A DNA stretch of 28,254 bases, taken from a virus. A program made the translations under genes and the position numbers. The stretch is taken from IMG/VR virus record IMGVR_UViG_3300023272_000010, positions 1 through 28,254 of that record. One strand, given 5' to 3'. Shown here in pieces: positions 21,550-25,669 of this stretch. How positions within the stretch are numbered: the stretch's first letter is position 1; each line of letters starts with the position of its first letter. The notes under the pieces were generated by a model, which worked only from the letters and a program-made list of their open reading frames with translations, did no database searches and was not told where the DNA came from.

Positions 21550-21580
21550 AAGGCGGCTCTTTCCGGGCCGCCTTTTCTAT
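21550..21580 (+). terminator. Rho-independent terminator ending the replication/recombination unit
   Basis: AAGGCGGC at 21550-21557 pairs perfectly with GCCGCCTT at 21567-21574, with a nine-base loop and a following TTCTATTT tract. The GC-rich stem stands out from the AT-rich surroundings. It closes the transcript that ends with the RusA-like gene and separates it from the partition genes. Confidence 0.85.
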
Positions 21581-21601: not shown

Positions 21602-21720
21602 TCCGGAAATCCCGGACAGTTGGGAATGAAATGTAGACAAATATGTGTAAAATATGTATCTTATATGTGAAATATATATATAAAATACATATTCATAAAA
21701 CTAAAACACATAAGAAATAT
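21602..21720 (+). repeat. AT-rich repeat region upstream of parA, centromere/operator candidate
   Basis: After a small inverted repeat TCCGG/CCGGA (21602-21616), the motif ATATGTG recurs as ATATGTGTAA (21641), ATATGTATC (21652) and ATATGTGAA (21663), and inverted forms appear (ATACATAT near 21685, AACACATAAG near 21706). A possible promoter is TAGACA at about 21633 with TATCTT 17 bases on. Ribbon-helix-helix partition proteins bind such short repeats both to segregate DNA and to repress the par operon. Confidence 0.5.
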
Positions 21721-22356
21721 ATGAAAATTGTAGTAGGGGGAATTAAGGGGGGAAGCGGTAAAACCACAATCGCTACCAACTTAACAGCTATGAGAGCTTC
21801 AACTGGTAAGAAAATATTACTGGTTGATTCTGATGAGCAAAAATCATCATCAGATTGGGCCTCTCAAAGAGATTCAATGGGTATAAAAACGAATTGGACC
21901 ACCACCCAAATGTACGGGGAAACCGTACACTTGGAAGTTTCCAAAATTGAATCGGATTACGATGACATCATTATAGATGTTGGAGGCAGAAATACAAGAA
22001 GCCAAAGATCAGCGCTTTTCTGTGCGGATATATTCATTATTCCATTAAAGCCAAGATCATTAGATATTTGGACCGTTTCGGCGGTGAATGAAATGATAGC
22101 AGAAATCATCATCTTGAACCCTAACATGAAATGCTATGCAGTCATCAATCAAGCAGACTTTAAAGGGTCGGACAACAAAGAAGCAATGGATATCATTGCA
22201 AAATATTCAAATATTAAATGTTTAGGAGTTTCTATTGGAAATCGTAAATCATTCGGTAATGCTATTGCTGAAGGATTAGCGGTATTTGAGATGAAAAGTA
22301 AAGATTTGAAAGCAATTGAAGAAATGGATTTATTGTATAGAAATATATTCGCATAG
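21721..22356 (+). CDS. parA: ParA-family partition ATPase
   Basis: 211 residues, the short (type Ib-like) form without an N-terminal HTH. The deviant Walker A is KGGSGKTT at 9-16 with the signature lysine at 9, then LLVDSDEQ (A'), Walker B IIIDVGG, and the IIPLKPRSLDIW segment typical of ParA/MipZ. The start at 21721 begins directly with the first beta strand; an upstream in-frame start would add 26 unusual residues. The next gene encodes an RHH protein, the usual centromere-binding partner. A partition module in a phage genome implies low-copy plasmid-like maintenance. Confidence 0.85.
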   Translation: MKIVVGGIKGGSGKTTIATNLTAMRASTGKKILLVDSDEQKSSSDWASQRDSMGIKTNWTTTQMYGETVHLEVSKIESDYDDIIIDVGGRNTRSQRSALFCADIFIIPLKPRSLDIWTVSAVNEMIAEIIILNPNMKCYAVINQADFKGSDNKEAMDIIAKYSNIKCLGVSIGNRKSFGNAIAEGLAVFEMKSKDLKAIEEMDLLYRNIFA

Positions 22357-22453
22357 ATGCATATGATAAATATATACACAATATATGAAAAATGTGGTAA
22401 AAATACACATTAGGCATATAAAATAATTGCAAAAATATACGACAAAGGTGCAT
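22357..22453 (+). repeat. AT-rich gap between parA and its RHH partner with related repeats
   Basis: Copies of ATATACACA-, AATACACAT- and GCATATRA-type motifs occur here (around 22372, 22401 and 22412, and at both ends). They look like inverted versions of the ATATGTG repeats before parA. The two gaps together would make parC-like binding arrays flanking the ATPase gene. Confidence 0.4.
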
Positions 22454-22699
22454 ATGATTAGAGATAAACAAAATCCTAAGACGAATAAAGAGTTGGAAGA
22501 ATTGAAAATAAAGATAATACAAAAAGGAAGTGATTCTGAACTGTTAGATAAAAATTTAAATAATAAGTTTAAAGTATTCAATGTTCGAATTCCATATGAC
22601 CTATATGAAGACTTGGAAAGAGCAGTAAAAAATAGAGTGGGAATTACAAAAACTGGTTGGATTTTGGAATGTATTTCGGAAAGATTAAAAGCCCTATAA
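22454..22699 (+). CDS. Ribbon-helix-helix DNA-binding protein, likely ParB/ParG-type partition partner
   Basis: 81 residues from the ATG at 22454 with AAAGGTG just upstream. The first 38 residues are charged and probably flexible, as in ParG-like proteins. Residues 39-80 form an RHH domain: a beta strand FKVFNVRIP, helix YDLYEDLERAVKNR, turn GITKTGW and helix ILECISERL. In type Ib systems the flexible N-terminal arm stimulates the ATPase and the RHH fold binds the centromere. Its place after parA strongly supports a pair. It may also autoregulate the operon. Confidence 0.7.
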   Translation: MIRDKQNPKTNKELEELKIKIIQKGSDSELLDKNLNNKFKVFNVRIPYDLYEDLERAVKNRVGITKTGWILECISERLKAL

Positions 22700-22710: not shown

Positions 22711-22968
22711 ATGAACATCACACCTGTTGGAAGCTATGTATTATTGAAGAAAAGAAAAGAGCAGGATAAGCCTGGAAAGATTATCATCACAAATTCATCT
22801 ATAGATCCATACCCTCATCAAGGAATTGTAATAAGCAATGGTTCGGACTGCAAAAAGACGTGGTGTCCCAATACAATTGTAAGACATCAGGCTCATGCAG
22901 CACAAACAGTCAATGAGGAATATCTTCTAGTAAACGAGGAACAGATTATAGCTATAATAGGTGAGTAA
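22711..22968 (+). CDS. GroES/Cpn10-like co-chaperonin
   Basis: 85 residues, slightly shorter than bacterial GroES (about 97). The start (22711) follows AAAAGGAAA. It keeps the GroES frame: NITPVGSYVLLKKRKEQ matching the N-terminal strand, a GKIIIT segment in the place of the mobile-loop GGIVL that docks on GroEL, HQGIVISNG in the place of RGEVLAVGNG, and a C-terminal LLVNEEQIIAIIGE nearly identical in pattern to the bacterial end. The roof region is reduced and contains CKKTWCPN. Phage co-chaperonins such as T4 gp31 let GroEL fold large capsid proteins. Stop overlaps the alpha-CTD-like gene (TAATG). Confidence 0.75.
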   Translation: MNITPVGSYVLLKKRKEQDKPGKIIITNSSIDPYPHQGIVISNGSDCKKTWCPNTIVRHQAHAAQTVNEEYLLVNEEQIIAIIGE

Positions 22969-23333
22969 TGACTGAAGAAGAAAGAATAGAAATTGAATGG
23001 GAACATCTTCCGTATAGAGTGGAAAATGTATTAAAACTTCACGGAATACAAAATATAGATCAACTTGTGAAACTCTCGACAAGAGAGCTTTTGCAATGGA
23101 GGAACTTTGGTAAGAAATCAATTAATGATATTCGTCGATATCTTGCTAAGTATGATCTTAGCTTAAAAGACGAAACTGTAAATCCAGACGTGCAGAAGAT
23201 GATATTGAAAGATATCCCGGCAATATTGGATAAAATAAGGACGCAAGTAGAAGATTCATGCAGAGAATTGCGATACCTTAGCTTTAAGTTAGAGCAGATT
23301 TCAACAGAAGCTAGGAATTTGGATAAAAGATGA
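22968..23333 (+). CDS. Stand-alone RNA polymerase alpha-CTD-like DNA-binding protein
   Basis: 121 residues. Residues about 13-67 resemble the C-terminal domain of bacterial RNA polymerase alpha: LPYRVENVLKLHGIQNIDQL, STRELLQWRNFGKKSINDI, RRYLAKYDLSL. By hand alignment without gaps, the E. coli DNA-contact residues Arg265, Asn268, Asn294, Gly296, Lys298 and Ser299 correspond to Arg17, Asn20, Asn46, Gly48, Lys50 and Ser51; Glu302 is Asp54. The alpha assembly domain is absent. The last 50 residues are a charged helix with ILDKIRTQVEDSCRELRYL, which may form a coiled coil or bind a partner. It could bind UP elements or block and redirect host polymerase. Function is inferred. Confidence 0.7.
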   Translation: MTEEERIEIEWEHLPYRVENVLKLHGIQNIDQLVKLSTRELLQWRNFGKKSINDIRRYLAKYDLSLKDETVNPDVQKMILKDIPAILDKIRTQVEDSCRELRYLSFKLEQISTEARNLDKR

Positions 23334-23707
23334 ATGAAGAAACATTAGAAAATTTCAAATCCCGAATGAATTCAGAATATGCAAAACAAGGATCAATATA
23401 TTTTGATAGGCAAGGAAGAGAGCTGCAATTGATGGATTGGGCGAGTAAATTCGAGGATAAGGAATATCAAATCGTTAAACAAGACAGAATTGGAAAATAC
23501 TTTGTAAGTACAGTATGGCTTGGCATAAACCATAGGTTTATGAGAGGAGGCCCTCCTTTGATTTTCGAGACAATGGTTTTTGTAGACGATGAAAAAGATC
23601 CATTAAATGAATATCAAGAAAGATACTCAACAGAAGAAGAAGCGGTAAACGGACATGAAGATACGATCGCGATTGTAAAAGCCTATATGAATTTGGAGAA
23701 GAGATGA
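23330..23707 (+). CDS. Conserved phage protein of unknown function
   Basis: 125 residues, overlapping both neighbours by four bases (ATGA). The N-terminal third is helical and charged; the centre contains GKYFVSTVWLGINHRFMRGG and LIFETMVF, a block I recognise as recurrent in small uncharacterised proteins of many phages. The C-terminus is a helix with EEAVNGHEDTIAIVKAYM. No catalytic residues are obvious. It is part of the early/accessory operon downstream of the co-chaperonin and alpha-CTD-like genes. Confidence 0.65.
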   Translation: MNEETLENFKSRMNSEYAKQGSIYFDRQGRELQLMDWASKFEDKEYQIVKQDRIGKYFVSTVWLGINHRFMRGGPPLIFETMVFVDDEKDPLNEYQERYSTEEEAVNGHEDTIAIVKAYMNLEKR

Positions 23708-23955
23708 AATTCGAAGGAACTAAAAAATTGAATATAGAATTGCGTGATCTTTTTGAACGCGACTTAAAGAACGTGCTTGTCACTCTTGAAAAGTTGTGCC
23801 AAGGGAAAGTAGATCATGTCGATTACGTTAAGGCGTACAAATATTTTGTAGACACATGGAATCCAGATGAGCCAGTTTTGAAAAGATTTCCCGGGTCGAT
23901 GGGTTATAAGTTTGGTACGCCACCGCCCGGTACCGTAACAACTTTAAAAGAATAA
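23704..23955 (+). CDS. Unknown small protein
   Basis: 83 residues, starting in the stop of the previous gene (ATGA). It is helical with alternating charge (NIELRDLFERDLKNVLVTL) and has a Gly/Pro-rich end (GSMGYKFGTPPPG). No motif is recognised. Co-translation with the preceding gene suggests related use. Confidence 0.6.
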   Translation: MKFEGTKKLNIELRDLFERDLKNVLVTLEKLCQGKVDHVDYVKAYKYFVDTWNPDEPVLKRFPGSMGYKFGTPPPGTVTTLKE

Positions 23956-23960
23956 ATATA

Positions 23961-24161
23961 ATGAAAGTCGATGTGAATCAAGAAGAATTAGAATTCTTAA
24001 TGCGTTTCTGCAAACGCGCCATTCAGTTGGCTACTCAACTTGGAGATAAGGGCGGCACAATATTTGACCCGGAAAGAGGTGAGAATATTGAGAAGGCAAC
24101 AAAGCTCTACATTAAGCTTGAAAGAGCTTACCATACAAGGAATGAAAATGGAATGGATTAG
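23961..24161 (+). CDS. Unknown small helical protein, ends in NGMD
   Basis: 66 residues. Helical, with EELEFLMRFCKRAIQLATQL and an IEKATKLYIKLERAY helix. Its last codons (Met-Asp-stop, ATGGATTAG) lie inside the next gene, where the same bases in another frame encode Trp-Ile-Ser. The same arrangement recurs 431 bases later, indicating a duplicated gene junction. Confidence 0.6.
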   Translation: MKVDVNQEELEFLMRFCKRAIQLATQLGDKGGTIFDPERGENIEKATKLYIKLERAYHTRNENGMD

Positions 24162-24402
24162 CGTTAAAGATAAACTCCCAGAATTATATGATTTTGTTTT
24201 GGTTTTTGCAGATAATCAAGGAACCAATGAGCCTAAACCATTTTCTATTGCTAGGTGGGAATCTGAAAAGTGGGAATTTATTAATCATTCCCCTCTTATG
24301 CCGAATTATGGAGCATATATGGAAATGGAATATAATATGGATTCTGAAGATGTAACCCATTGGATGCCTCTACCACAACCACCAAACCGTAACAGAGAGT
24401 GA
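24148..24402 (+). CDS. DUF551-like protein, copy 1
   Basis: 84 residues from the ATG at 24148, seven bases after AAGG; an ATG at 24142 is also possible. The family signature is clear: EWISVKDKLPE at the start, VLVFADNQ, a central W (ARWESEKWEF), and THWMPLPQPP at the end. DUF551 proteins are small, widespread in phages and prophages, and functionally unknown. The start overlaps the preceding stop by 14 bases. Confidence 0.75.
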   Translation: MEWISVKDKLPELYDFVLVFADNQGTNEPKPFSIARWESEKWEFINHSPLMPNYGAYMEMEYNMDSEDVTHWMPLPQPPNRNRE

Positions 24403-24409
24403 GGAATAA

Positions 24410-24592
24410 ATGATCAGTCTTTTCCCAATATGCACAGTATGCAAAGAGAAATGCGGGAACTCTCAAATTATAAGCTATTTTAAACAATCTCCTAATGGGG
24501 GAATGACAACAAAAGCTTGCTGCATGCCGTGTTCTAATATCACCAATGATAAATGGTTAGAAAATGGATGGAAGAAAAATGCAATGGATTAG
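24410..24592 (+). CDS. Small zinc-ribbon-like protein, ends in NAMD
   Basis: 60 residues with a GTGAGGAATAA Shine-Dalgarno region. Two Cys pairs (CTVCKEKC and CCMPC) are spaced like a small zinc ribbon. The C-terminus (KKNAMD) overlaps the following DUF551-like gene exactly as in the upstream pair. Function unknown; a nucleic-acid or protein-binding zinc knuckle is plausible. Confidence 0.6.
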   Translation: MISLFPICTVCKEKCGNSQIISYFKQSPNGGMTTKACCMPCSNITNDKWLENGWKKNAMD

Positions 24593-24788
24593 CGTTAAAG
24601 ATCAATTACCGAAATTGGGAATCCAATATCGTTATCTTTTTCTGAATGGGAAAAAGGATGTGACGTTTGGCTATGCATATGATTGGCCTCCTGAAGATGA
24701 TCGGCGCATTTGGATTAACGACATGGATAATGAGACAAATGAGATAGCCACTCACTGGATGCCACTACCACAACCACCAGAGAAATAA
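24579..24788 (+). CDS. DUF551-like protein, copy 2
   Basis: 69 residues from the ATG at 24579; a start at 24564 would add five residues. It opens with QWISVKDQLPK and ends with THWMPLPQPPEK, the same borders as copy 1, while the middle (YRYLFLNGKKDVTFGYAYDW) differs. The first 20 bases of the overlap are identical to copy 1. The serine recombinase gene follows one base after its stop codon. Function unknown. Confidence 0.7.
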   Translation: MQWISVKDQLPKLGIQYRYLFLNGKKDVTFGYAYDWPPEDDRRIWINDMDNETNEIATHWMPLPQPPEK

Positions 24789-25460
24789 ATGAAATACGTA
24801 ATCTATTTAAGAGTTAGTACAGATCAGCAAGCTCAATCGGGACATGGTTTAGAAGCACAAAGAGCCATGTGCTATCAATATATTGCTAATAAAGGGCAAG
24901 GATGCAGCGTTCTAGAGTTTAGCGACGAAGGGATTAGCGGATCTAAAACTTTGGAAAAGCGTCCTCAGCTATTTGCAGCAATTAATTCTCTTGAGAAAGG
25001 GGATATATTGCTTATCTCAAAGAGAGATAGAATAGGCCGTGATCCTATTGTGAATGCCATGATTGAAAGAGCAGTACAAAGAAAGAATGCCAGACTAATA
25101 AGCGCAAGTGGGGACGTGAGCGATAGTAATGATCCTACATCAATTCTTATGAAAAGAATGATAGATGCCTTTGCAGAATATGAGCGATTAATCATTGGAG
25201 AAAGGACTAAAGCATCTTTACAAGCAAAGAAGAAAAAGAACGAAAGAGTGGGATATATTCCTTTTGGATATAAGCTTTCTGAAGACAAAATCCATCTTGA
25301 GAGAAATGAAGGAGAACAACAGATTTTAGACATGATCAGAATGGGTAGAAAAGATGGGGCTTCATTTAGAAAAATAGCTCAAGATTTCAATGAAATGCAA
25401 ATTACCAATAGATTTCTAAGACCTTGGAACCATGTATCAATAATAAGGGTGATGAAATGA
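24789..25460 (+). CDS. Serine recombinase (resolvase/invertase family)
   Basis: 223 residues. The catalytic domain is complete: RVSTDQQ with nucleophile Ser10 and Arg8, the GLEAQR segment, and SKRDRIGRD at 77-85 with Arg81 and Arg84 matching the active-site arginines of gamma-delta resolvase. Then comes helix E (MKRMIDAFAEYERLIIGERT). A short C-terminal DNA-binding part follows (GYIPFGYKL, then FRKIAQDFNEMQITNR and WNHVSIIRVMK), resembling a small recombinase-type HTH. The size is between resolvases and large integrases. It could integrate the prophage, or resolve dimers of a plasmid prophage next to the par genes. No flanking crossover repeats were seen. Confidence 0.85.
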   Translation: MKYVIYLRVSTDQQAQSGHGLEAQRAMCYQYIANKGQGCSVLEFSDEGISGSKTLEKRPQLFAAINSLEKGDILLISKRDRIGRDPIVNAMIERAVQRKNARLISASGDVSDSNDPTSILMKRMIDAFAEYERLIIGERTKASLQAKKKKNERVGYIPFGYKLSEDKIHLERNEGEQQILDMIRMGRKDGASFRKIAQDFNEMQITNRFLRPWNHVSIIRVMK

Positions 25461-25669
25461 CTTGGAGACTTTGGTGCAATCGACACATAGACAAAATTGA
25501 AGATGATGAAAATTATCTAGTCTCCTATAAAGACTCAGATGGCAACTACTCACATCCTATCAGAGCATATTATATAGCGGAAGATGATGCTATGTTTCCT
25601 ACTGATTCAAGCTTTGCTTTTCCCCTGAAACCTGATATTTATATGCCAATGCCAAAGGTGCCGAAATGA
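25457..25669 (+). CDS. DUF551-related small protein
   Basis: 70 residues, starting inside the recombinase stop (ATGA). It lacks the WISV start but has a similar overall plan: YLVSYKDSDGNYSHPIRAYY in the middle and PDIYMPMPKVP at the end, recalling HWMPLPQPP. It is most likely a diverged member of the same group. Function unknown. Confidence 0.55.
   Translation: MTWRLWCNRHIDKIEDDENYLVSYKDSDGNYSHPIRAYYIAEDDAMFPTDSSFAFPLKPDIYMPMPKVPK

Follow-up and report, generated by a model that had tools for sequence, protein, structure and literature searches.

A stand-alone RNA polymerase alpha C-terminal domain with a probable coiled-coil tail, encoded in a variable region of a phage

The 28,254-base stretch of viral DNA analysed here (referred to as the window; an IMG/VR virus record, apparently a fragment) contains an open reading frame at 22968-23333 whose product carries a true C-terminal domain of the RNA polymerase alpha subunit (alpha-CTD). 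The domain stands alone in a protein of 121 amino acids. Its likeness to the bacterial domain lies far beyond chance, as shown by its score against the Pfam family PF03118 (RNA_pol_A_CTD), its matches to alpha subunits in the PDB and the match of its predicted fold to alpha-CTD crystal structures. We infer from these features that the protein may bind DNA, dimerise and affect transcription. The explanation that we favour, with a probability of roughly 0.4, is that it would act as a minor-groove binder, paired by a coiled coil, which occupies AT-rich promoter DNA in competition with the host alpha-CTD or in its place.

The gene runs from ATG to TGA on the plus strand and is preceded by a Shine-Dalgarno-like AGGTGAG (22959-22965, plus strand), read directly from the sequence. 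Its start overlaps the preceding gene, which is GroES/Cpn10-like (22711-22968, plus strand; PF00166, E=2e-7; phrog_3188), in the sequence TAATG, and its stop overlaps the next gene in ATGA. An RBS-like motif combined with overlaps at both ends looks typical of a translated operon gene, and the minus strand across the same interval is closed by many stops.

The alpha-CTD spans residues 5-67 (22980-23168, plus strand), as placed by Pfam, alignment with RpoA and Foldseek. PF03118 matched residues 5-60 with 50.2 bits (cut-off 23.8) and E=2.2e-13. An earlier, sequence-only reading of this DNA had proposed such a profile search and named a match to generic HhH domains alone as an outcome that would refute it; this was not what was seen, as no HhH family reached E<=1 in the Pfam scan, and a generic HhH domain was rejected as the identity of the region since PF03118 alone matches it. 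Sequence matches in the PDB were all RNA polymerase alpha subunits up to E ~0.14 (best E=5.7e-7), while those in NCBIfam were mostly to the C-terminal part of rpoA models. The N-terminal dimerisation and assembly domain of RpoA is absent from the 121 residues, and its loss, which had been deduced from the letters alone, is borne out by the restriction of the matches to the C-terminal part of these models.

Alignment with E. coli RpoA (reference L049, with its real residue numbering) is gapless, as had been claimed, over residues about 14-67 of the window protein, with 23/55 positions identical. R17, N20, K23, N46, G48, K49, K50 and S51 match R265, N268, K271, N294, G296, K297, K298 and S299, respectively, and position 302 is D54 in the window protein versus E302 in E. 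coli. The six contacts named earlier (R265, N268, N294, G296, K298 and S299, at R17, N20, N46, G48, K50 and S51) are all identical, so that the residue claims were exact. Host alpha-CTDs hold on to UP elements by means of R265 and nearby residues. In our contact table all of the DNA contacts are kept in the window protein, and some of them are lost in several other phage alpha-CTDs. The 121-residue protein probably binds DNA.

The surfaces that face other proteins have changed. In E. coli alpha, D259 and E261 contact sigma region 4, and the surface around V287 contacts activators. In the window protein the sigma-contacting 261 determinant, which belongs to the function of the domain and is dispensable for its fold, is absent, D259 being replaced by W11 and E261 by H13, and the activator-facing 287 determinant is altered (V287 to R39). 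The W11 and H13 replacements fit a protein that would bind DNA without helping sigma. They also bear on the possibility that the protein is a recruiter, its alpha-CTD binding upstream of phage promoters while the tail, or some partner, attracts host polymerase or sigma and so activates phage transcription. Other phages do pair an alpha-CTD with a sigma-region-4 helix-turn-helix by fusion, a promoter-recognition pairing that would suit a recruiter. However, with W and H at the sigma-contacting positions, no match to a polymerase-binding domain in the C-terminal tail (Pfam, PHROGs and NCBIfam) and none of the scanned window proteins recognisable as a sigma-like partner, we regard recruitment as unlikely. 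The altered 287 determinant weighs against another idea, that the free alpha-CTD is a decoy which soaks up host activators that dock on this domain, or else the enzymes with which rival phages modify R265 of alpha or take the alpha-CTD off. Phage enzymes that attack this domain exist, in that T4 Alt and ModA ADP-ribosylate alpha R265 (PMC2988021) and LUZ19 Rac causes the alpha-CTD to be cleaved from polymerase (PMC7552054). The window protein also retains R265 and the residues around it; but the loss of the activator-facing residue, together with no sign of superinfection exclusion among the nearby genes, makes a decoy function very improbable. The T4 and LUZ19 proteins target the same polymerase domain, but they are enzymes or inducers of cleavage and none of them is a copy of the alpha-CTD.

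AlphaFold2, given an alignment of nine phage alpha-CTDs, modelled the 121-residue protein with a mean pLDDT of 89.5, and with about 92-94 over residues 11-60, which make up most of the domain. The top Foldseek matches in the PDB were alpha-CTDs. Over 53-66 residues most of them superposed at 0.8-1.6 Angstrom rmsd, and a few chains less well. Chains of the DNA-bound structures 1lb2, 3n97 and 9zum are among these matches, with best superpositions at ~0.8-1.4 Angstrom. By superposition the aligned contacts lie on the DNA-binding face, and not on a wrong face, an outcome that the sequence-only reading had named as refuting its proposal.

Beyond the domain, residues 73-120 (48 residues; 23184-23327, plus strand) are predicted as a single continuous helix. 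Its hydrophobic residues alternate in a 3/4 spacing (I83, L87, I90, V94, S97, L101, L104, L108, I111, A115 and L118), with S97 as the exception among the a/d positions of the heptad, and the heptad score of the tail was reached by only 4-6 of 5000 shuffles. Model and sequence together suggest that this helix is probably a coiled-coil dimeriser, through which two copies of the protein would pair. The tail had previously been described as a charged helix, of which the helix stands and the merely charged character gives way to an a/d heptad repeat. The only relatives of the tail were phrog_14271 (E=6e-4) and a weak match in Brevibacillus phage Davies (E=0.8), in both of which a coiled-coil bias is possible.

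The combination of kept DNA contacts and lost sigma contacts, in a domain that is free and probably paired, is best explained by a protein that would compete with, or stand in for, the host domain on AT-rich promoter DNA. The C-terminal helices would pair two copies of the protein by a coiled coil, and the pair would set two alpha-CTDs on AT-rich minor grooves in the manner of the polymerase's own two, but free of polymerase. Most likely the pair would compete locally with the host alpha-CTD, at UP elements or on other A-tract DNA, and would thereby weaken strong host promoters or adjust phage ones, either during infection or during maintenance. A lone alpha-CTD binds DNA weakly, so competition would need dimerisation or high levels of the protein, both of which are predictions here. 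Also in favour of this explanation are the probable use of host polymerase by these phages, the known targeting of the alpha-CTD by T4 Alt and ModA and by LUZ19 Rac, and the sigma-4 fusions of unrelated phages, which tie phage alpha-CTDs to promoters. Two considerations tell against competition: the gene lies in a cluster led by parA, where a DNA role outside transcription is possible, and a phage that depends, as this one probably does, on the host polymerase would risk inhibiting itself. A stronger form, in which the free, coiled-coil-paired alpha-CTD occupies UP elements and shuts the strongest host promoters as an encoded dominant-negative alpha-CTD, seems doubtful to us; such a protein would be distinct from the enzymes that act on the host domain by modifying or cutting it. 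A free alpha-CTD carried by a phage would be a third route, besides ADP-ribosylation and cleavage, to disabling the host alpha-CTD. A free phage alpha-CTD would also offer a simple way to test the action of this domain unhooked from polymerase.

The cluster is headed by a ParA-like partition ATPase (21643-22356, plus strand; phrog_164, E=1.6e-42; NF041546, E=2.1e-45 although below the curated cut-off), followed by a small conserved gene (22427-22699, plus strand; phrog_949, E=5.1e-5) that probably encodes its centromere-binding partner and is also present in most parA relatives. A strong terminator-like hairpin of 10 pairs, seven of them G-C, lies just upstream of parA (21550-21574, plus strand) and separates the cluster from the genes before it, and the cluster may therefore be its own transcription unit. 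The sequence strongly suggests that the alpha-CTD gene is co-transcribed with parA and groES, and promoter-like matches in the region did not exceed shuffled expectation. On the 3' side of the alpha-CTD gene are small unknown ORFs, two DUF551 genes (24040-24402 and 24564-24788) and a serine recombinase or resolvase (24789-25460, plus strand; PF00239, E=3.8e-30). DUF551-like copies were also seen scattered among related phages.

This setting raises the possibility that the alpha-CTD fold serves as a general DNA-binding adaptor, a minor-groove or HhH clamp employed not in transcription but in replication, genome handling or partition of a plasmid-like kind. Its place behind parA and a probable partition partner, which head the cluster, would agree with this, as would two alpha-CTDs of other phages (L056 and L057) that sit within replication or recombination gene blocks. 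However, the parA relatives mostly keep the small gene after parA but have no alpha-CTD, and it follows that partition does not need one; moreover the promoter-DNA contacts are kept as a full set. We consider an adaptor role rather unlikely.

Comparison with related phages was based on 12 records found by the 838-aa tail protein of the window and 14 found by ParA, with one in common, giving 25 distinct records of which several are fragments. PF03118 was above the Pfam cut-off in 0/25 of these, and none contained a match to the whole 121-aa protein, while the same search picked up PF03118 in the window and in two phages unrelated to it. The nearest relative, G001, keeps the order parA, small gene and GroES and then continues directly with the homologue of the window gene at 25424-25669. 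It is without the whole 22968-25423 stretch (plus strand), a 2.4-kb cassette comprising the alpha-CTD gene, the small ORFs, the two DUF551 genes and the serine recombinase. The alpha-CTD gene thus belongs to the accessory content of a variable region and does not serve as a core function. The GroES-like copy of G001 at the same place is only 30% identical to that of the window.

Matches to PF03118 below the cut-off in two relatives, G026 and G034, were not counted as alpha-CTDs: one lies inside a ParB-like protein, and the other, in a 100-aa ORF of a parA relative (L084:1384-1683), is without R265 and N294, the ORF itself overlapping a longer one on the antisense strand. Among the ORFs of at least 170 aa in G001, which is near full-length, only the tail protein has the size of a single-subunit RNA polymerase and none was a candidate for one by size and position, and for this reason the phages of this group probably rely on the host polymerase. 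Matches to ParA and the recombinase were spread over many phyla. One distant relative of the tail protein (L040, 32%) comes from a contig assigned to a Candidatus Lokiarchaeota bin; the contig is probably that of a phage and misassigned.

No close relatives of the whole 121-aa protein were found in IMG/VR, and its matches in annotated phages were all below 60% identity and covered at most half of the query. Its domain, in turn, is less singular than had been claimed, as alpha-CTD proteins recur in phages and are already annotated automatically. Three scans turned up PF03118 in phage contigs that have no relation to the window, and in several architectures: on its own, with an apparent membrane anchor or joined to sigma region 4. 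An 82-aa protein (L067:3944-4189), encoded upstream of a terminase-like gene, is an alpha-CTD and almost nothing else; L057 and L068 have short N-terminal parts; a 106-aa protein (L056:2429-2746) has a membrane-like N-terminal segment before an alpha-CTD in which N268 and K298 are not kept; and L059 combines the domain with a coiled-coil-like region. In BFVD and UniProt there are ~10 phage proteins, mostly of 98-139 aa, with the automatic name 'RNA polymerase, alpha subunit, C-terminal' or similar. The window protein shares with these entries and with L056, L057, L067 and L068 the presence of PF03118, a short length and no assembly domain, and its gene belongs to a recurring kind of phage protein that is automatically annotated yet uncharacterised. 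Among the automatically named proteins, A0A6J5NZM6 (111 aa), A0A6J5QDR9 (133 aa) and A0A2P1JY10 (Rhodococcus phage Finch) are examples of phage-encoded, mostly short proteins with the same fold. A0A6J5NZM6 aligns with the window protein over 102 columns, but identity among the best matches is only 23-33%. No named alpha-CTD family was found in PHROGs for any of the phage alpha-CTDs scanned, the window protein included, and in the open-access literature we found no description or functional study of phage-encoded alpha-CTD homologues.

Fusion to a sigma-region-4-like helix-turn-helix was seen in L051, L052, L053/L054, L055, L058, L066 and L069. The strongest sigma-4 matches were in L066 (E=6.5e-19) and L069 (E=4.1e-13), those of L053 and L058 being below the Pfam cut-off. 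As in the window protein, PF03118 is matched and most DNA contacts are kept in L051, L052, L053, L055, L058, L066 and L069, but these proteins are longer (219-332 aa) and have the sigma-4-like helix-turn-helix that the window protein lacks. They could form a phage family for promoter recognition; no dedicated PHROG was found among the members scanned. Some of the fusions carry an extra N-terminal HTH, and L003 likewise combines an alpha-CTD with a helix-turn-helix resembling sigma-70 region 4.

The alpha-CTD of RpoA itself (PF03118, E. coli residues 249-329) shares with the window protein its fold, a gapless alignment and the DNA contacts, but the window protein differs from RpoA in having no N-terminal assembly domain, in its changed sigma and activator contacts and in its added, probably coiled-coil, helix. 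NF005841 (PRK07758), a 95-aa NCBIfam family named 'hypothetical protein', is similarly short with an alpha-CTD-like region, but the window protein scores 26.2 bits, below the curated cut-off of 115, and is no member. That the window protein is itself a contaminating rpoA was rejected, since the N-terminal domain is missing and the genes around it are of phage or plasmid type. The Streptomyces plasmid matches labelled as alpha subunit that were inspected proved to be full-length rpoA copies and not stand-alone domains. Four inspected tblastn matches in 'phage' records (MT839982, MT839913, MT836419 and MT837142; L004, L005, L047 and L048) looked like bacterial rpoA, either full-length or cut by the record end, and were set aside. 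These records were deposited as human-gut bacteriophage and represent contamination; in L004 and L005, other bacterial-looking genes lie beside rpoA.
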